Source of the DNA: Runella sp. CRIBMP
GTDB lineage: Bacteria; Bacteroidota; Bacteroidia; Cytophagales; Spirosomataceae
Reading direction: 5' to 3'
Length of the DNA: 64,000 nt
Assembly (NCBI RefSeq): GCF_009905605.1
Contig: NZ_JAAAKZ010000009.1
Span: 124,001 to 188,000 of the forward strand
The translations under genes and the position numbers were made by a program. Below, piece by piece: positions 19,686 through 61,164 of the stretch. A model generated the notes under the pieces. It was given only the letters and a program-made list of their open reading frames with translations, ran no database searches and was not told where the DNA came from. Each line of letters opens with the position of its first letter. Position 1 is the stretch's first letter.

Positions 19686-19717
19686 TAGAGCTTCCCGCAC
19701 GGGATGCCCCATCTCTA
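19686..19717. repeat. Degenerate palindromic element
   Basis: A short foldable sequence with outer arms TAGAG/CTCTA and an inner TCCCG/CGGGA, next to the stop codon of the ABC-M1 gene. It resembles interspersed palindromes common in Bacteroidota but is too degenerate for a firm call. Confidence 0.35.
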
Positions 19718-22700
19718 CAACCCCTCCACCGTCGTCACATTATCGTCCGAAATTCGGTCAATGAGTTTGTTGTACGGGTCAATACCTGCTTTTTTGGGTT
19801 CGCCTTTGACGGTAAATTCGAGCGTGTGCTCGCCAGGGGTAAGCCAATGTTTTTTGAGGTACAGCGGCACTTTTTTCTTCATGCCTTTGGCATTTTTACC
19901 TTCTTCGGCAAAGATACCAATGTCAATATAATCGCGCCCTTTGCCCGTACTTATTTCCTTTCCTTGCTTGTCGTAGTAGAGTTTTTTGGCCTGTACGGTG
20001 AGTTTTACCTTGTACTCGTTGCCTTTTCCTTTGGTGGCTTCGGCTTTGGTAATTCGGTTTTCGTACAAGGCTATTTTCTCAAAACTATCTTGGGCAAAAT
20101 ACTGCAACGAATCAGGCACGACTTTCCGTAGTGCCGCAAACCACTTGCCCGAGGTTGGATACGGAGGTTTTTCCAGAAACGCATTTTCATTGGCAAAATC
20201 ACTGAGGGCTTTGTTCATGTTCTTTTCTCCAATCAGGTCTTGCAAAGCGTAGAGTACCAACGAGCCTTTGTCGTACCACACGTAAGAACGGCTGTCGTTT
20301 TCGAGGAGCGTTTCTTCAAACTTGCTTTCGTTAGAACGCCCGCGCAGGTAGGCATCTAAGCAATACTTGAGGCGGTTTTGCATGGCATCTTCGCCGTATT
20401 CTTTCTTCAACACCATGAGCGAAGAGTATTCGGCCATAGATTCTGAAATCTGATTGGCCCCGCGCGTATAACTCGGACAAATCTGGTGCCCCCACCATTG
20501 GTGCGCTACTTCGTGGGCCGTCACGTAGTAGGCGTAGTCGGTGTCGTTGGGGTCAGAGAAATCGGCTACCCAGCCAAAACTTTCGGTGTAAGGCACGGTA
20601 TTAGGAAACGATTGCGCAAAACCTGCGTAGCGCGGAAACTCAATAATCCGCATTTCGCTGTACTGATACGGTCGATAATTGACGTGATTGTACGCCAATG
20701 CATCCTTTACGCCTTTGATGAAATGGCCTAAATTCTTCTCGTGGCCGGGGTGGTGATAAATCGCAATTTTGATTTCCTTGCCGTCGGGGGCTTTCCAAAC
20801 GTCTTTCTTGACCGTGTAGCGAGCCGAACAAACGTTAAAAAACAAGTCCATCAGCCCTTCTTGTTTGTAGTAAAAATACCGCCGTCCCTTGTCGGTCCAC
20901 TCTTTTTGGAGGTAGCCGGGCATAATGGCAATCTGGTCGGGTTCGGTACTGACCGTGCCTTCAAAGGTCACCAAATCGGCATCGTCGTTGAAGAGCAACG
21001 TACTCAACCCAAAAGCATCGGATTGCGTAGGTAACGTATATTTCTTTTCGGGCAAACCGTATTTTTTGCGGTACTTATCCGAGTCAATTTTGTCGCCACC
21101 ATAACCCATTGAAGGAAAGATTTGGAGGTCAAAAAATGTCCCATTTTCAACAATTTCACGGCTCAAACCGCTATTTTCAAAACCCCGGTTTTCGGCGCGT
21201 ACAACCACTTCCATTTTTACGGTATCACCCGGTTGCAGCGTCTGGGGAAGACGATAAATCTGATACTCTAACTCTTTGTCATCCAAAATGATTTTTGGAG
21301 CTATTCCGTTGATGGTCAACTTTTTGATGTCGGTATGAGCGATAGGGCTACCCATGTTCAGGTGCAGAGAATCAATTGGCACTTGGGTTTTGTTGACGAG
21401 CGTAAATACACCTTGGGCATCACACGCCCGCTCATTCGGAAAAAGGTCAATATTCACCTTCACGTCTATCACTTTAGGTTGGGGCGTACGCTCGTACTTT
21501 TTGTATTTCTTCTCATAATTTGCGCCTTGTTGTCGTCCTTCTTCAATTCCGACGTATTTGTTTAGGATGCTCACGTTGTAGTAAATGTACGCACTTGCCC
21601 CCAGCCACAGCACCGTAAAAAGTGTGAGCCATGCGTATGATTTGCCGCTGAGACGCTGCTTCATCAATTGCCAACGGGCTTTGAAAGCATCTTCAGACCC
21701 TCGGTTCCAAAACAAATTGCCCACCACCAGAAGCAAAGCACCCAACGCCAACCAGTTAAAATGAAACCAAAAAAGGGGCTTGGCAAAATGACCAAAGCCA
21801 TTCATGTCCGAAATGCGGTAGTTGGGGAAATAGCTGAAAAAGAACAGGTTGTAGTTGATTTCGGCAAAACTCTGAATGCTACCCAACAAAAACCAAAGCC
21901 CGATGGTAAGAATGTGTCCGAGAAATTTTTGGTTGACCAAAATATGCATAAAAAATGCCAACATCGCCAATTCGACGTATTCGGGAAACTCAATCAAATA
22001 CAAGTCGGTGAAGTACTTATCAAACTCAAAGTTGAAATACCCTTTTATGATTTGATTGGCGACTCCGCTCACAATCACCAAGTTAGCTAGCACAAATCCA
22101 ACCAACACAATGGCCAAAAACTTAGAGCCGTACACCATCCAGTTGGGTACGGGCAACGAGTCAGAGATGAGGTTGTACTTCACCGACTTGTCTCGATGGA
22201 CTACTTCTCCCGTATAAAAAATCAAGATAATATACACGAACAAGCCATAGTTGAAGTCTTTGACCTCAATCATGTAGTAGGTCAAAGGCAATGAGGGGGT
22301 TCCGAACTGTGGGAAACCAAACCATCCATCCGTAAACAGAAAAAACAACGCCCCAACCATGATGGCAATAAAGTACGGGTCACGGATAATCTGCCCGAAC
22401 TCCAACCACGCTTGGCTGAACATTTGGCGAAGAAAGATGCTACTTGAATAGATTTTATCGGCCACGGGCAAATCTGCCAGCGACAAACGGGTGGTTGGAC
22501 GCTCTTCGTCTTTTTGTTTCTTGCCAAGCTTTACCGACAGAAACCGCTGAAAACTAAACCGATACAATACGCCCAAAAATACCACTAATCCTAAGCCTGT
22601 CCATATCAGGCGGTTGTAGAGGAGATTTCCTACGAGTGGGGCGGTGAGGGTGTTTTGTTCAAAAGGAGTCCAGTATTTAGTAGCGTTGTTGAAAGTGGTT

Positions 22701-23344
22701 AGCCCGAAGGGGTCAATCAAATCCACGAGGTTTTTGTTTTCCAAATCACGGGTCAAAACGGTTGAAAGTAGATAAGCAATCAGCAGTAAAATACCTCCCG
22801 AGTAGATAATAAACACCTTGCGTGTGAGTGCTACCAAACTAAAAAACAAACAGCCCGTAAACAGCATGTTGGGTACAACAAATAGCAAATAAGGCTGTAT
22901 GTGATGCCATAGATTGACGGGAGCAAAGCGGCTTGCGTTTTCGGCCAGTCCGAGCAGGGGCCCTAAAATACCTCCCAGCAGGATGCCTAATACCATACCA
23001 AAACATACAAACAAAAGTGTAACAAATGACCCCAAAAAACGCCCCATTAAGTAGCCTTTTTCGGTAATGGGAAAGCTAAAAAAGTAATCTTTGGTGCCAA
23101 ATTCTACATCGCGATAGATGGGTACACCCATGATGGCGGAGCTGATTAAGCTGGCAAAAATGGAGATGATAATCAGCATCTGTGAGATGGCGTAGGGCGA
23201 ATTGAGATTGGCTTTTTCGGAAGCGGGACCGCTGCCGTAAATAATATTCAGGAACATGAACAAAAACAGCAGGCCAAAATACAGATAAGTGGCAGGGCGC
23301 TTGAAGCGATATTTTAACTCGAAAAGGAATATTTCTTTGAACAT
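19715..23344 (-). CDS. ABC transporter permease fused to M1-family aminopeptidase
   Basis: A 1209-aa fusion. The first ~590 residues hold about a dozen membrane helices in two sets, typical of ABC-2 permeases. The C-terminal ~570 residues are a gluzincin aminopeptidase domain: the zinc motif HEVAHQWWGH near residue 941 is followed ~18 residues on by the third ligand Glu in NQISESMAEYS. The peptidase domain is probably outside the membrane. Its ATPase partner is encoded at 23824-24705 on the same strand, with a four-helix-bundle gene inserted between them. The domain calls are firm. Transport of peptides, or their processing after export, is inference. Confidence 0.92.
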   Translation of the reverse strand: MFKEIFLFELKYRFKRPATYLYFGLLFLFMFLNIIYGSGPASEKANLNSPYAISQMLIIISIFASLISSAIMGVPIYRDVEFGTKDYFFSFPITEKGYLMGRFLGSFVTLLFVCFGMVLGILLGGILGPLLGLAENASRFAPVNLWHHIQPYLLFVVPNMLFTGCLFFSLVALTRKVFIIYSGGILLLIAYLLSTVLTRDLENKNLVDLIDPFGLTTFNNATKYWTPFEQNTLTAPLVGNLLYNRLIWTGLGLVVFLGVLYRFSFQRFLSVKLGKKQKDEERPTTRLSLADLPVADKIYSSSIFLRQMFSQAWLEFGQIIRDPYFIAIMVGALFFLFTDGWFGFPQFGTPSLPLTYYMIEVKDFNYGLFVYIILIFYTGEVVHRDKSVKYNLISDSLPVPNWMVYGSKFLAIVLVGFVLANLVIVSGVANQIIKGYFNFEFDKYFTDLYLIEFPEYVELAMLAFFMHILVNQKFLGHILTIGLWFLLGSIQSFAEINYNLFFFSYFPNYRISDMNGFGHFAKPLFWFHFNWLALGALLLVVGNLFWNRGSEDAFKARWQLMKQRLSGKSYAWLTLFTVLWLGASAYIYYNVSILNKYVGIEEGRQQGANYEKKYKKYERTPQPKVIDVKVNIDLFPNERACDAQGVFTLVNKTQVPIDSLHLNMGSPIAHTDIKKLTINGIAPKIILDDKELEYQIYRLPQTLQPGDTVKMEVVVRAENRGFENSGLSREIVENGTFFDLQIFPSMGYGGDKIDSDKYRKKYGLPEKKYTLPTQSDAFGLSTLLFNDDADLVTFEGTVSTEPDQIAIMPGYLQKEWTDKGRRYFYYKQEGLMDLFFNVCSARYTVKKDVWKAPDGKEIKIAIYHHPGHEKNLGHFIKGVKDALAYNHVNYRPYQYSEMRIIEFPRYAGFAQSFPNTVPYTESFGWVADFSDPNDTDYAYYVTAHEVAHQWWGHQICPSYTRGANQISESMAEYSSLMVLKKEYGEDAMQNRLKYCLDAYLRGRSNESKFEETLLENDSRSYVWYDKGSLVLYALQDLIGEKNMNKALSDFANENAFLEKPPYPTSGKWFAALRKVVPDSLQYFAQDSFEKIALYENRITKAEATKGKGNEYKVKLTVQAKKLYYDKQGKEISTGKGRDYIDIGIFAEEGKNAKGMKKKVPLYLKKHWLTPGEHTLEFTVKGEPKKAGIDPYNKLIDRISDDNVTTVEGL

Positions 23345-23367
23345 AATTTTAGGAGTGAGGTATGAGG

Positions 23368-23800
23368 AGTGAGTAGCGAGTAGTTTTTTACTTTGATGCT
23401 TCGATTGCGTGGGTGTACGCGTTCAAAAGTTTTGCTACTTCCTCCGGTTGATTTTGTAAAACCATTGTATCGGCATAAGCCAAATCTTGAGATAAGATTA
23501 GATAGTAGTGCGTTTCGTCCAAAGAACCTTGTGCAATATTCATAAATTTTATTTTATCTGGTTTTGTCCGTTTACGGTAGCCTTCCGTAATATTGGCAGC
23601 TACTGAAATTGAACTACGACGCATTTGTGAGACTAAACCAAACAATTCTTCTTTGGGAAAAGTACGAGTGAGTTGATAAACTGCCAAAACAAGTTGATGG
23701 GCTTTTTGCCATACAATTAACTCTTTAAATCCTTTTGATTTTTCCATTGTATCATTCAATGTTGTCGAGTTAAAACTCTATTTTATTCTCGCTACTCACT
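23368..23800. repeat. Perfect 13-nt inverted repeat flanking a four-helix-bundle gene
   Basis: Left arm AGTGAGTAGCGAG (23368-23380) and right arm CTCGCTACTCACT (23788-23800) are exact reverse complements. They bracket the whole four-helix-bundle CDS. The flanks outside the arms are also purine-rich on the left and pyrimidine-rich on the right, so the stem may be longer with mismatches. Confidence 0.85.
23388..23759 (-). CDS. Four-helix-bundle protein (23S rRNA intervening-sequence / S23 family)
   Basis: A 123-aa, wholly alpha-helical protein of the S23/TIGR02436 four-helix-bundle family. The family signature is visible as WQKAHQLVLAVYQLTR near residue 18, QMRRSSISVAANITEGY near 45, and SLDETHYYLILSQDL near 78. 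Members were first seen as ORFs inside 23S rRNA intervening sequences; the biochemical role is unknown. The gene interrupts an ABC permease/ATPase operon and lies between complementary 13-nt arms. A homologue with the same arrangement is at 60738-61115. Confidence 0.9.
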   Translation of the reverse strand: MNDTMEKSKGFKELIVWQKAHQLVLAVYQLTRTFPKEELFGLVSQMRRSSISVAANITEGYRKRTKPDKIKFMNIAQGSLDETHYYLILSQDLAYADTMVLQNQPEEVAKLLNAYTHAIEASK

Positions 23801-23823
23801 TCTCTCTTCTGGCTTCTAAAAAT

Positions 23824-24705
23824 CTACACTGCCAATCCCACTCGTTTTGTAATTTCGGAGAAATAAACGTCTTCCAAATCGGCAGTGGCGAGTTCAAAAC
23901 TGCTAAGTGGCTCCTCTGAAATGACCCTTATTTGGGTTTTACCCATTTTCAACGACGTAGAAATGACCTCATAATTGGTCTGATAATGCTCTAATTCCGA
24001 CTTATCAATCATTTTTTTCCACACCTTACCGCTGATTTCTTTCACTAAGTCGTTTGGATTGCCTTGTGCAACCACTTCGCCGAGGCATATAATGGCCATG
24101 TCGGAACATAAATTTGTGACATCTTCCACAATATGGGTCGAGAGAATCACAATCGTATTTTCGCCGATTTCTGAAAGAAGGTTATGAAAACGATTTCTTT
24201 CGGCAGGGTCGAGACCCGCGGTCGGTTCATCCACAATGATGAGTTTTGGATTGCCCAACAATGCCTGCGCTATGCCAAAACGTTGTTTCATCCCCCCCGA
24301 AAATGTCCCTAAATTTTTCTTTCTGACTTGAAACAGATTTACTTTTTGCAACAGCCCTTCCACAATTTCTTTGCGCTGTTTGGCATTTTGGATGCCCTTC
24401 AAACTCGCAATGTGGTCGAGCATGGTTTCGGCTGTTACTCGTGGATATACCCCGAATTCTTGGGGTAAATATCCCAGTACTTTGCGAACTCCTTCTTTCT
24501 GACGAAGCACGTCTAAATCGCCCAGCATTACGCTACCACTGTCGGCTTCTTGGAGCGTAGCGATGGTTCGCATGAGCGATGATTTCCCAGCGCCATTGGG
24601 CCCCAGTAGCCCAAACATGCCTTGATTGATGGTCAACGATACGCCTTTGAGCGCTTGTACTCCATTTGAATACGTTTTGGAGAGATTTTGGATGGTTAGT
24701 TTCAT
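23824..24705 (-). CDS. ABC transporter ATP-binding protein
   Basis: A 293-aa ABC ATPase. Walker A is GPNGAGKSS near residue 38, the Q-loop lies in LGYLPQEFGV, the signature is FSGGMKQR near 135, Walker B is LIIVDEPTAGLDP, and the switch His follows in LSTHIVED. A ~70-residue C-terminal extension is typical of ABC-2 exporters. I chose the Met at 24705 (MKLTIQNLSKTY); the 15 upstream codons do not fit the family. It partners with the permease-peptidase fusion at 19715-23344. Confidence 0.93.
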   Translation of the reverse strand: MKLTIQNLSKTYSNGVQALKGVSLTINQGMFGLLGPNGAGKSSLMRTIATLQEADSGSVMLGDLDVLRQKEGVRKVLGYLPQEFGVYPRVTAETMLDHIASLKGIQNAKQRKEIVEGLLQKVNLFQVRKKNLGTFSGGMKQRFGIAQALLGNPKLIIVDEPTAGLDPAERNRFHNLLSEIGENTIVILSTHIVEDVTNLCSDMAIICLGEVVAQGNPNDLVKEISGKVWKKMIDKSELEHYQTNYEVISTSLKMGKTQIRVISEEPLSSFELATADLEDVYFSEITKRVGLAV

Positions 24706-24858
24706 AAAATATCTGTAAGGGTTGTTTTTACGAAAATAGTAAAAAGACATATAGAATCAGGATAAATTTTGGATTAAAGGCAACATAAGCAGATGAACGT
24801 CAAGCGGTAGTGCGGGAATAAGATGTTTTTGTATTTTTGTTAAAAACAAAGTCATAAA

Positions 24859-29383: not shown

Positions 29384-30148
29384 CTAAGCTACAGCCCCCT
29401 TCACTTTAGCAGATTCGGTCGCATTTTTAGCGATGCTGTATACAACCAAACCAAAGCCGATTTTATTGACGGCGTCGGCAATGTTGTACGCTAAATCGAC
29501 GGGGGAGCTTTGGGTCAAATCTACTCCAGCTACAAGGCCGCTAAGGAGATTGCCCGGAAGCAACATGTAACCGATTGGATAGATGGCCCAACCTACGAAG
29601 GTAAACCAACGCAGTACATTATAACCATCTTTTACCGCTTGACTGTCGGATGCGGCGGCTACTTTGGAAGCCTCACCCATGTAGATTTCATAGATGATAG
29701 CGGCCCATCCAAGGGTAGAAATGACGCCCCACAGCACATTTGACTCAGGGCTGACGGCCTCACCAATGTAGCCCGCAACCAGCATGAGAATTGAACCTAA
29801 CAAAAGTCTGACGAGCATACCGCTTTTGGCACCAGCAGGGCGCAAAATCAGGTAATACTCAATACACATCAACGGCACCGTCAAAGTCCAGTCGATGTAT
29901 CTAAATTGAGTAGGCGAGGTGTGGGTTTCGAGCCATACGCCCCTCATGTAAAAATAATGTACTGCGGCAATGAACGTAATCAAAGCAGATACCAGCAGCG
30001 AGGTTTTCCACTTATCGGCCACAGTGCCGCGCTCAACGATAAAGAAAATAGATGCGGCCAACATTGACATGTAGCCCGTAAAAAAAGTAAAACCGATGTA
30101 GTCACCTGCGGCGAGTGCACCGTCTAAGAGAATGTTTAACATTTGCAT
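29384..30148 (-). CDS. Green-absorbing proteorhodopsin-type proton pump with fenestration Gly
   Basis: A 254-aa seven-helix microbial rhodopsin. Helix C carries D86, T90 and E97 (DTE), the proton acceptor/donor pattern of outward H+ pumps. M94 occupies the spectral-tuning site (position 105 in proteorhodopsin), where Leu or Met means green absorption. K229 in helix G (ADAVNKIGFG) is the retinal Schiff-base Lys, and H64 matches His75 of proteorhodopsin. Gly141 sits seven residues before W148 in helix E, aligned with Phe152 of green proteorhodopsin and Gly156 of xanthorhodopsin, so a carotenoid antenna could fit. The retinal-producing genes crtY-blh lie 3 kb away. Confidence 0.96.
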   Translation of the reverse strand: MQMLNILLDGALAAGDYIGFTFFTGYMSMLAASIFFIVERGTVADKWKTSLLVSALITFIAAVHYFYMRGVWLETHTSPTQFRYIDWTLTVPLMCIEYYLILRPAGAKSGMLVRLLLGSILMLVAGYIGEAVSPESNVLWGVISTLGWAAIIYEIYMGEASKVAAASDSQAVKDGYNVLRWFTFVGWAIYPIGYMLLPGNLLSGLVAGVDLTQSSPVDLAYNIADAVNKIGFGLVVYSIAKNATESAKVKGAVA

Positions 30149-59374: not shown

Positions 59375-60781
59375 TTATTTGTTTCCGATATCGTATTTGT
59401 CGTTGTATTTTTTGTACTGGCGTTTGTGGCGGTCGTCGAGGTCGGTCTTACGACCCCTGATGAAAGCGTGTTCAATGCCGTTGGATCGCATATCCAAAAT
59501 GTCGCCTTTGCAGACCACGAGCGTGGCCAGCTTCCCTTTTTCCAACGTCCCTACCTGTTTGTCAATGCCCAGTATTTTGGCGGGGGTAGACGTAATCATT
59601 TTTAACGCTTCTTCGCGGTCGAGGTTCCCAAATCCCGCGGCGGTTCCAGCTACAAAAGGTAAGTTGCGCGTACGCCAATAGGCTTCGCCATAACTTAACG
59701 CAACCGTGACGCCCGCTTTTTGCAGCAACGAAGGCAGTTGATAGGGCTGATACACGGGTTCATCCTGACGGTTGGGGAGGCGGTGGGTTTCTCCCAAGAC
59801 CACGGGAATATTGTTTTCTTTCAGAAAATCTACCACCCGCAACGCATCTTCTGCTCCTACAATGACTGGTTTCTGAACCCCGTGCGATTTGGCAAATTTG
59901 ACAGCTTCGATAATGTCTTTACTGTTGTCGGCGCGGATGTACAAGTTTTGATTGCCACTAAATAGCCCCCGCAACGCTTCCAATTTGAGATTGGTAATGC
60001 TTGGATTTTTGATTTGGCTGTACGCGCGGGCATCCGAAAACAATTGCGCAAGATTATTGATTACCTCCTGACGGCGGCTGTTTCGTTGGAGGCTTACCGA
60101 AAAATCCTCGAAGTTGAACTCACGGGCAAAAAATGGCGGCCACGTCAGCCACAAGCCATCGTCTTTTTTCAGAACAGCATCTTCCCAGTTCCATCCGTCG
60201 AGTTCCATCACCGACGATGAGCCCGAAATCGTACCACCTTGTGGAGTCGCTTGGGTAAGCAATAATCCATTGTTGCGTAAGGTCGGAATAACTTCAGAAT
60301 CAGTGTTATACGCAACCAATGCCCGAACGTTGGGATTGAGCCCCCCGATTTCCTGGTTGTCGGTAGTGGCCCGAACCGAACTGATTTCGACCAAGCCCGT
60401 TGTGGCGCCCATGGCAATGAGGCCCGGATAAAGGTGTTTGCCAGTTACGTCAATGATTTCGGTGGCGTTGCGGTCAAAAGTCGTACTCGCATCGCCTACG
60501 GCGGTAAGGATTCCTTTGTCAAAGACCACCGTTCCTTTGTCAATCACGGTTCCGTTGCCTACATGAACCGTGCCACCCACCAGTGCAATAGGCTTGGTTT
60601 GGGGCTTGGCAGGGGCGGGGTTTTGTGCCGATACGGGCTGAAATAAGAGGCCAGAAATAAGAAGTAAGAAATAACAAATAGGCCCTAAGAAATAAGATGC
60701 CTGAGCTAAATATAACTTATGGACTTTTATGGGATAGTTAGAAGGTCTTCCAGTTCTCATGTAATTTCGAAAGTTTAGCAC
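59375..60781 (-). CDS. Secreted amidohydrolase (imidazolonepropionase-like)
   Basis: A 468-aa amidohydrolase-superfamily protein. Residues ~25-53 are a hydrophobic signal peptide (YFLLLISGLLFQPVSAQ). The usual metal motif HxH is replaced by GLIAMGATTGL at the expected place (~122-132), so this half may be degenerate; later blocks VVDFLKENNIPVVLGETHRL and AGFGNLDREEALKMITSTPA are typical of the superfamily. The 5' end overlaps the four-helix-bundle gene by 44 nt, and part of the signal peptide is encoded by a repeat arm. The exact start is uncertain (60781 or 60760). Confidence 0.82.
   Translation of the reverse strand: MLNFRNYMRTGRPSNYPIKVHKLYLAQASYFLGPICYFLLLISGLLFQPVSAQNPAPAKPQTKPIALVGGTVHVGNGTVIDKGTVVFDKGILTAVGDASTTFDRNATEIIDVTGKHLYPGLIAMGATTGLVEISSVRATTDNQEIGGLNPNVRALVAYNTDSEVIPTLRNNGLLLTQATPQGGTISGSSSVMELDGWNWEDAVLKKDDGLWLTWPPFFAREFNFEDFSVSLQRNSRRQEVINNLAQLFSDARAYSQIKNPSITNLKLEALRGLFSGNQNLYIRADNSKDIIEAVKFAKSHGVQKPVIVGAEDALRVVDFLKENNIPVVLGETHRLPNRQDEPVYQPYQLPSLLQKAGVTVALSYGEAYWRTRNLPFVAGTAAGFGNLDREEALKMITSTPAKILGIDKQVGTLEKGKLATLVVCKGDILDMRSNGIEHAFIRGRKTDLDDRHKRQYKKYNDKYDIGNK
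60640..60668. repeat. Left arm of an imperfect inverted repeat around a four-helix-bundle gene
   Basis: 29-nt purine-rich arm, complementary at 22 of 29 positions to 61136-61164. It lies inside the signal-peptide codons of the downstream amidohydrolase. Confidence 0.7.
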
Positions 60782-61115
60782 CGAGATATTCAGTATCGGT
60801 AGTTAGTTCTTTGTATGATTCTTGACTAATATACAGACAATCTAAAGCGAATAATAACCAACATTTAGTCTCTTCAAGTGAGCCGAAGGAGTCGATTAAA
60901 TGTCTTTTGAATGTATTTTCAAATCTTCGCTTTCCCCAACCTTCTGCAATATTTGCAGCAACGGAGCGAGAGGAACGTCGTATTTGATCGGTTAAGGAGT
61001 ATTTTTCTTCAGAAGGAAATTTTGTACTGAGCCAAAAAATTTTCATGGCTAATTGATGAGCCAAAGTATAAACTTGTAAATCTCGGAAAGTTTGGATGGG
61101 TGTTTTATTATCCAT
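60738..61115 (-). CDS. Four-helix-bundle protein (S23 family), second copy
   Basis: A 125-aa all-helical protein of the same family as 23388-23759. Shared blocks: FRDLQVYTLAHQLAMKIFWL near residue 10, QIRRSSRSVAANIAEGWGKR near 44 and SLEETKCWLLFALDC near 76. The two copies are clearly divergent, so they are not a recent duplication. It lies between two amidohydrolase genes of one operon and is bracketed by 29-nt complementary arms. Function unknown. Confidence 0.9.
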   Translation of the reverse strand: MDNKTPIQTFRDLQVYTLAHQLAMKIFWLSTKFPSEEKYSLTDQIRRSSRSVAANIAEGWGKRRFENTFKRHLIDSFGSLEETKCWLLFALDCLYISQESYKELTTDTEYLGAKLSKLHENWKTF

Positions 61116-61135: not shown

Positions 61136-61164
61136 CCTACTTCTTGTTTCTTTTTTCCTATTTC
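61136..61164. repeat. Right arm of the inverted repeat around the second four-helix-bundle gene
   Basis: 29-nt pyrimidine-rich arm overlapping the stop codon of the upstream amidohydrolase gene (61158-61160). Adjacent low-complexity sequence encodes the Glu-rich tail EEQSEEEKK. Confidence 0.7.

Follow-up and report, generated by a model that had tools for sequence, protein, structure and literature searches.

An S23 gene between complementary arms in an ABC-transporter operon

The window analyzed here, a 64,000-nucleotide stretch of a Runella sp. CRIBMP contig, carries a gene of the S23 (23S_rRNA_IVP) four-helix-bundle family between the gene for an ABC-transporter ATPase and that for a permease-like protein with an M1 peptidase domain (Table 1). 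An earlier note on this DNA had proposed this arrangement from the sequence, and profile matches to PF05635, PF00005 and PF01433 confirm it. The S23 open reading frame (ORF) matches PF05635 at E 9.5e-36 and 122.7 bits (cut-off 33.8) and TIGR02436 at 119.5 bits (cut-off 24), which places it in the family; the permease-like protein scored 23.4 bits against ABC2_membrane_4, under the cut-off of 27. The mechanically called S23 ORF spans 23388-23759 (-), opening at TTG 23759; judged by alignment, the true start is probably ATG 23747. The spacer that holds the gene is 402-406 nt longer than in three S23-free relatives, G004, G010 and G009.

Table 1. Features of the two S23 loci, in positions of the 64,000-nt window; 5' and 3' are given in operon sense.
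Feature	Position	Strand	Remarks
Permease-like protein with M1 peptidase domain, downstream cistron	19715..23344	-	PF01433 E 1e-10
Whole cassette	23345..23823	-	479 nt, ATPase-gene stop to permease-peptidase start
3' arm	23347..23380	-	inverted repeat; heptamer array 23351-23383, lag-7 score 14
S23 / 23S_rRNA_IVP four-helix-bundle gene	23388..23747	-	PF05635, TIGR02436; alignment-based start
5' arm	23788..23821	-	inverted repeat; purine-rich heptamer array 23788-23817, lag-7 score 13
ABC-transporter ATPase gene, upstream cistron	23824..24750	-	PF00005 E 1.6e-29
3' heptamer array, second cassette	60653..60680	-	lag-7 score 15
Second S23 gene	60738..61115	-	PF05635 110 bits
5' heptamer array, second cassette	61141..61164	-	inverted heptamer pair enclosing S23

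The gene is bracketed by inverted repeats with 13 nt of exact complementarity (23368-23380 and 23788-23800), as the earlier note had observed, and these extend to 34 nt at 76% complementarity, with the end of the 3' arm adjoining the permease start codon. An exact match of at least 13 nt arose in none of 1,000 base-shuffled flank pairs and in 2 of 1,000 mispaired flanks of S23 loci from the genus, and is present at 8 of 49 genus S23 loci. By Smith-Waterman alignment, the complementarity of the window arms scored 18, against a mispaired 95th percentile of 15. As an RNA duplex, they reach -42.4 kcal/mol, the 9th percentile of mispaired arms; this is above most and not exceptional, probably because other loci share the heptamer style. 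The same note had expected the arms to pair in the transcript and leave the ORF in a loop. In folding predictions for a 486-nt RNA without ribosomes, the 13-nt arms pair mutually in the centroid (13 of 13 pairs, mean probability 0.99), but the minimum-energy fold (z -2.47) lacks the arm helix.

Complementary arms around an ORF are the layout of rRNA intervening sequences (IVSs), and the window locus has that layout in a protein-coding operon, as had been claimed. The S23 gene lies between the two ABC-transporter genes, and positions 23000-24200 contain no rRNA family; the only two matches there to known RNA families were both far under their gathering scores.

The S23 arms are degenerate tandem heptamers, reverse-complemented between the two sides, with units that vary from locus to locus. 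We scored periodicity as self-match at lags 3-15 in 130-nt flanks and counted an array where the lag-7 score reached at least 12 on at least one side. Lag-7 segments scoring at least 12 number three in the window, and each flanks one of its two S23 genes. The second of these genes lies between genes that we take to be amidohydrolase-like and has its own heptamer, of the GAAATAA/GAAGTAA type; its slot is filled also in G001 and G004, retains a C-terminal remnant in G005 and lacks S23 in G009. The earlier note had recognized neither the heptamer arrays in the arms nor the like anatomy of the second gene. The same 64-kb stretch as both S23 genes also contains an ORF at 29384-30148, presumably related to microbial rhodopsins.

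The S23 protein is a conserved four-helix bundle

The AlphaFold model of the window S23 is a bundle of four helices (pLDDT 94.4). Its closest structures by Foldseek were 2gsc and 2rld, with TM scores of 0.70-0.87 to the chains of 2gsc (2gsc_D 0.87). The protein thus lies above the family cut-offs and has the family fold, and none of the protein features tested distinguishes it; what is new is the flanking arms. Likely homology between PF05635 and Avd, a protein of diversity-generating retroelements, has been noted (PMC10053308). The fold of Avd 4dwl is indeed similar (TM 0.74-0.76) but the match is weaker, with E-values of 0.04-0.4, and the window protein reaches 28 bits against the NF033474 cut-off of 80 and 25.6 bits for bAvd (cut-off 40), which leaves it outside both Avd models. 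A pattern scan on an alignment of 36 S23 proteins gave no usable pattern, the sequences being too diverse. The gene is under purifying selection: dN/dS was 0.05-0.20 in 13 of 14 hand-chosen S23 pairs, the fourteenth being saturated. Within the window's phylum, 116 of 148 sampled genomes carry S23.

Heptamer arrays flank S23 genes across phyla

We examined three samples of S23 loci. The genus sample comprised 50 loci from 13 genomes, of which two with short or N-rich flanks were left out, leaving 48; the phylum sample comprised 50 loci from 50 other genomes of the phylum, mostly top-scoring matches; and the named sample comprised the best 80 of at least 584 loci, reduced by three with short flanks to 62 outside Bacteroidota and 15 within. 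Because they were selected as top-scoring matches or as the best 80, the phylum and named samples favor the canonical S23 branch. In all the statistics below the loci are phylogenetically non-independent, the gene starts are mechanical, and the gene baseline and the background come from one genome.

A period of seven stands out in every sample. At the genus loci, the mean lag-7 score was 9.0 upstream and 11.5 downstream, compared with 3.4-5.2 at lags 3-6 and 8-13 and 5.3/5.2 at lag 15; lag 14, an echo of lag 7, gave 8.8/9.4. Scores of 12 or more occurred at 24 of the 48 loci for lag 7, at 22 for lag 14 and at 0-5 for the other lags. The phylum sample had a mean lag-7 score of 10.9/8.2, with the threshold reached at 24 of 50 loci for lag 7, 17 for lag 14, eight for lag 8 and none or one elsewhere. 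The signal was strongest at the 62 loci titled outside Bacteroidota (mean 16.7/15.4), with 47 positive at lag 7 and 42 at lag 14; lags 8 and 15 gave five each, and lags 4-6 and 9-13 gave none. Among the named Bacteroidota, 9 of 15 were positive at lag 7. Three of the 62 loci, L161, L200 and L221, presumably count as Bacteroidota under GTDB, and without them the lag-7 count is 46 of 59.

The S23-linked arrays recur across phyla. The titles of the 47 lag-7-positive records include alpha-, beta- and gammaproteobacteria, cyanobacteria, Chloroflexi, Planctomycetes, Acidobacteria, Clostridia, Fibrobacteres, Kiritimatiellaeota, Peregrinibacteria, Nitrospirae and others, together with one archaeal metagenome-assembled genome (MAG), which may be misbinned. 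Records named for a strain and not titled as MAGs were positive in 13 of 15 cases, so that binning errors do not explain the pattern. The lag-7 threshold was missed by half of the Bacteroidota loci and by 15 of the 62 others. Four of these 15 score at least 14 at lag 8, and a minority therefore uses octamers; besides multiples of seven, only periods 8 and 15 appear, as a minority. We also considered whether the heptamers serve to put stop codons in all frames, and rejected this, since left heptamers did not contain a stop clearly more often than shuffled ones: the shares were 0.38 and 0.47 in the genus, 0.50 and 0.49 in the phylum, and 0.59 and 0.50 (s.d. 0.06) at the named loci.

Plasmids carry S23 as well: 37 records have it, of which at least 27 belong to cyanobacteria judging by the genus name, with identities to the window protein of up to 59%. 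Of six plasmid loci inspected, four score 17-23 at lag 7 on the left; among these four, a strong partner arm (inverted score 19) is present only once, the others scoring 9-12. At AVA_RS28115 on plasmid C of Trichormus variabilis ATCC 29413, the left lag-7 score is 23 and the right array is weak. An inverted score of at least 17 was found in only two of the six. On a plasmid of Picosynechococcus sp. PCC 7003 (L293), S23 lies between cmr2/cas10 and cmr3 of a type III-B CRISPR module, with an inverted score of 17 and no lag-7 array; the locus on the Calothrix PCC 7716 plasmid showed neither heptamers nor a partner arm. With the L109 protein as sole query, no phage-borne S23 was found among 50,697 phage records.

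The arrays track the S23 gene

Array density was 12- to 257-fold higher at S23 genes than elsewhere in the same loci. Arrays within 200 nt of S23 numbered 41 in 19.8 kb in the genus sample, against one in 124 kb farther away; the phylum sample had 37 in 20 kb near S23 and 16 in 106 kb beyond, and the corresponding figures for the named loci were 96 in 31.5 kb and 50 in 333.6 kb. Nine arrays were present in 400 kb of G005 sampled away from all its S23 genes. By eye, two of these nine are gene-less inverted hairpins (L114:16948-17011 and L126:14804-15098), possibly non-autonomous or decayed cassettes.

Inverted heptamer pairs separated by 60-900 nt were also sought in 1.28 Mb of sequence, made up of 180 S23 loci, 30 ATPase loci, 20 background stretches and the window. 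Such a pair brackets S23 in 74 of the 180 S23 loci. A further 25 rows were returned, nine enclosing an S23 gene and 16 showing none. The nine are the two cassettes of the window, the window locus and its G001 orthologue seen again as L031 and L032, three query genes with misjudged starts, and L184 and L206, where the gene-sized inverted pairs revealed second S23 genes. Four of the 16 are gene-sized (L156, two at L224, and L126), and four have gaps under 150 nt and were left unscanned.

Six standalone GIY-YIG genes of the genus served as a negative control: their flanks are repeat-rich and not heptameric, and none of the six reached a lag-7 score of 12. In G011, G008 and G012 a standalone GIY-YIG gene lies directly 3' of the window-type ATPase gene (L271, L272 and L273; also L037 and L039); those of L271-L273 are flanked by GTCATTCCGACGGAGGAGGAATCT-type repeats, so that the same spacer holds another small gene with other repeats. 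A further standalone GIY-YIG gene, at L288, adjoins a tRNA-Met gene (near 1741-1815) and has tRNA-like letters upstream too, as if it were inserted in or beside a tRNA gene. L284 resembles it by eye, but a search with ARAGORN gave no tRNA.

The two arms of a locus match each other

The arms of a locus are matched to each other. The earlier note had named complementary flanks in homologues as a check on its reading, and they proved frequent: the complementarity of a locus's own arms equaled or exceeded the mispaired 95th percentile at 24 of 48 genus loci, 29 of 50 phylum loci, 43 of 62 loci outside Bacteroidota and 8 of 15 named Bacteroidota loci. Where both sides carry an array, the dominant heptamers agree with at most one mismatch at 24 of 28 loci outside Bacteroidota, 6 of 14 in the genus, 3 of 10 in the phylum and 2 of 6 named Bacteroidota, compared with 5%, 5%, 2% and 0%, respectively, of mispaired arms. 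Inverted similarity between the arms exceeds direct similarity at 33 loci against 11 (genus), 41 against 7 (phylum), 52 against 7 (outside) and 9 against 6 (named Bacteroidota); in a contrary result, the 15 usable named Bacteroidota loci have a higher mean direct (18.9) than inverted (17.5) similarity. As RNA duplexes, own arms beat all eight GC-nearest mispairings at 17 of 48, 21 of 50 and 32 of 62 loci of the genus, phylum and outside samples, where 5.3, 5.6 and 6.9 were expected.

Evidence that the arms travel with the S23 gene is mixed. The 14 closest S23 pairs without detectable flank homology (69-80% identity; both members cyanobacterial in ten) are all alike in arm sequence on one side or both, with scores above 16, the background 95th percentile for left-arm similarity. 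Across 1,391 S23 pairs of at least 50% identity in apparently different contexts, mean arm similarity was 11.0/10.3 against a background of 10.0, close enough that the arms do not travel unchanged over such distances; homology of the flanks was assessed with blastn alone, a method that overlooks distant homologues. Since arms are mostly unlike between related S23 loci and yet matched within a locus, the heptamers turn over quickly.

Cassettes tend to run from stop to start codon, in operon sense

Placement was measured at loci with an upstream sense gene and an array scoring at least 10. Relative to the upstream stop, the median start of the left array is 5, 1 and -1 nt at 16 genus, 20 phylum and 36 named loci, respectively, and the array starts within 10 nt of this stop at 9 of 16, 17 of 20 and 26 of 36. 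Between the end of the right array and the downstream ORF start the median distance is 2, 5 and 7 nt (19, 13 and 28 loci, with mechanical starts). S23 is co-directional with both neighbors at 126 of 161 classified loci (39 of 49, 38 of 44, 36 of 54 and 13 of 14), a further 19 being unclassifiable, compared with 130 of 277 genes in the G005 baseline (Fisher p 8e-11). It is antisense to both neighbors at ten loci, against 36 baseline genes, and the sense-sense setting is absent from 35 of the 161. The cassette thus tends to span the interval from upstream stop to downstream start, mostly in operon sense.

Orthologous sites with and without the cassette

Empty-site orthologues, a further check named in the earlier note, are present. 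Eight orthologous slots were examined, of which one, L077, was excluded because its flanks are themselves repeat arrays; each of the seven usable slots has at least one filled and at least one S23-free relative. In all three slots that we compared closely, the cassette has replaced the old spacer.

The ABC-transporter slot holds S23 in the window genome, G000, and in G001, and is S23-free in G004, G010 and G009; the spacer of G000 measures 479 nt and that of G004 76 nt. A left part of the spacer seen in the three S23-free genomes is missing from the two filled ones, and right-arm-like heptamers already stand beside the start codon in S23-free G004 and G010; the right arm may therefore be derived from the target, or the cassette may once have been carried there. 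At L019, a 49-nt spacer of G000, much alike in G004 and G010, is replaced by the cassette in G001, and G009 has a different S23 there (39 of 116 residues identical). The third slot, which we take to be that of a UDP-glucose dehydrogenase gene, has a very short spacer in G004 (6 nt), G010 and G005; in G000 and G001 the spacer and the last two codons of the upstream gene are altered and the cassette follows, with the G001 S23 truncated at its start. Elsewhere, G000 retains an apparent 3' remnant at L004, and at L063 gene-less heptamer hairpins occur in G005 (lag-7 score 20) and G009 (10), with a non-heptameric hairpin in G000 and G004. The readable slot alignments show no obvious target duplication, which spacer replacement would mask.

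The earlier note's variant of a gene that inserts beside stem-forming repeats may also hold: matched arms and spacer replacement suggest that the arms come along with the cassette, but two empty relatives already have right-arm-like sequence at the window locus, and the arms of related S23 genes in different contexts have mostly ceased to be similar. The polymorphic presence and wide distribution of the cassette lead us to infer that it is horizontally mobile. The earlier note had offered an mRNA-borne intervening element or a mobile gene; the complementary flanks and the empty-site orthologues favor that class of element, and the proposal as a whole is partly supported.

In G000, neither a reverse transcriptase nor a Y1 transposase emerged as a necessary genomic partner. 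RVT_1 had no match at E 0.001 in G000, nor in four further genomes among the 13 of the genus, and all five carry S23 (drafts, one of them 83% complete). Y1_Tnp gave one match in G000, of 22.7 bits, or 23.4 with its frame neighbors, at a cut-off of 23. With no recognizable reverse transcriptase and a borderline Y1 in G000, neither seems needed to keep the element.

Relation to known elements

REP/RAYT elements are likewise small palindromic repeats linked to a small gene; a Y1 transposase partner would be represented in G000 only by the borderline match of 22.7 bits. The cassette differs from diversity-generating retroelements in the lack of an RVT_1 match in G000.

The likeness to rRNA IVSs is one of layout. 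Those with an S23 ORF are excised by RNase III in Coxiella and replace a small loop of the rRNA, according to PMC4990558, and S23-type ORFs are also described in 16S and 23S rRNA insertions of CPR bacteria (PMC11270868). Like the IVSs of Leptospira, Coxiella and others, the cassette places an S23 ORF between complementary arms within a longer transcript, and where the IVS replaces a loop, the cassette replaced the old spacer in three slots. Unlike them, its host transcript is a protein-coding operon and its arms are heptamer arrays. None of the 20 loci scanned out of the 80 named ones contained rRNA. The window element lies outside rRNA, and for that reason we do not file it as an IVS, though it may work like one.

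For the S23 family itself, a homopentameric ring is reported for a Xanthomonas structure (PMC4990558), the same source and PMC11270868 call the family of no known function or functionally uncharacterized, and a figure legend in PMC10910872 lists 23S rRNA IVP among its domain abbreviations. Tandem heptamers in intergenic spacers, another feature the cassette shares, have been described from Beggiatoaceae, cyanobacteria, Bacteroidetes and Xanthomonas, some of them next to start codons (PMC4679880, PMC4692102). For TAACTGA heptamers just upstream of start codons, MacGregor argued in 2015 for a translational role, and proposed a repeat-binding protein as a possible mobile element (PMC4679880). The main texts of these two papers contain neither 'S23' nor 'four helix'. 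Among the matches listed from the open-access literature, a scope that leaves out preprints and most subscription papers, none links S23 to heptamer arms.

A probably mobile cassette whose protein may act on its own stem

The cassette is well supported as a unit. It comprises some 450 nt: a left heptamer array, a leader, the S23 gene and a right array reverse-complementary to the first. It would spread horizontally, with gains and losses at orthologous sites. That it acts in the operon mRNA is suggested by the sense bias, the placement from stop to start codon and the matching of the arms; the cross-locus statistics bear on association and anatomy, not on mechanism. The reading that we put forward, and to which we give about an even chance, is that the S23-heptamer cassette moves horizontally and that the S23 protein works, in operon mRNA, on the heptamer stem of its own cassette. 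In the polycistronic message, the two arrays would pair and set the S23 ORF in a loop. A ring of S23, a pentamer in the solved family member, might bind the repeated heptamers of this stem, and the bound protein might either protect the operon message from the inserted hairpin or direct cleavage of the hairpin. That S23 must protect, or direct the cutting of, its own stem would explain why the gene is kept in place.

Several other readings share part of this evidence. An element acting at the DNA level, in which a transposase or reverse transcriptase provided in trans would use the arms as ends or as single-stranded hairpins and S23 would be an Avd-like accessory, would fit the fold similarity to Avd, weak as its E-values are, the polymorphic presence at orthologous sites, the occurrence on plasmids and the gene-less hairpins at L063, the weaker in G009, which resemble a non-autonomous copy. 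Against it stand the five S23-bearing genus genomes lacking RVT_1, the borderline Y1_Tnp of G000, the lack of an obvious target duplication, though replacement would hide one, and the strong sense bias, which suggests a constraint at the RNA level; we consider it rather unlikely. Sense bias also agrees with a domesticated post-transcriptional switch, in which S23 on the heptamer stem would tune the downstream cistron and itself. Arrays that abut stop and start codons, the low dN/dS and the translational role argued for start-proximal TAACTGA heptamers (PMC4679880) all agree with such a regulator, but host operons vary and presence is polymorphic between close relatives, which an inserter fits better than a conserved regulator, and we think this reading unlikely.

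It is also conceivable, at a decidedly low probability, that only the stem matters, to be cut by RNase III as in ordinary IVSs, with S23 as a passenger. The layout shared with the IVSs excised in Coxiella (PMC4990558) and the predicted pairing of the window arms are in keeping with this; the purifying selection on S23 and the way in which heptamers track the gene across phyla argue the other way. Least credible, and in our judgment very improbable, is a mutational by-product, with arrays growing by slippage in palindromic spacers where S23 sits by chance. Arrays do occur far from S23 (nine in the 400 kb of G005, 50 far segments at the named loci), but their enrichment at S23 genes speaks against chance, as does the GIY-YIG control, where three of the six genes lie directly downstream of the same ATPase gene and none has heptamers.

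Implications for the S23 family

The mobile cassette acting on its own stem in mRNA leads to a broader proposal, which we regard as possible and put forward tentatively, doubting it more than we trust it. S23 genes would be ancient, cross-phylum minimal selfish elements, each a ring that recognizes a 7-nt repeat together with its own inverted arrays in stop-to-start spacers; rRNA IVSs would be a special niche of such elements, and many bacterial heptamer repeats would be their traces. Because the heptamers drift fast and yet the arms stay matched, the arms would, on this selfish-element account, be copied from each other or from the target.

The matched heptamer arms offer a concrete candidate ligand for the widespread S23 family, and the link between the two joins a pair of loose ends, the family itself and the scattered heptamer repeats of bacterial spacers. 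S23 genes found within operons, such as the one between cmr2 and cmr3 on the Picosynechococcus plasmid, may be inserted cassettes and not parts of the systems in which they lie.
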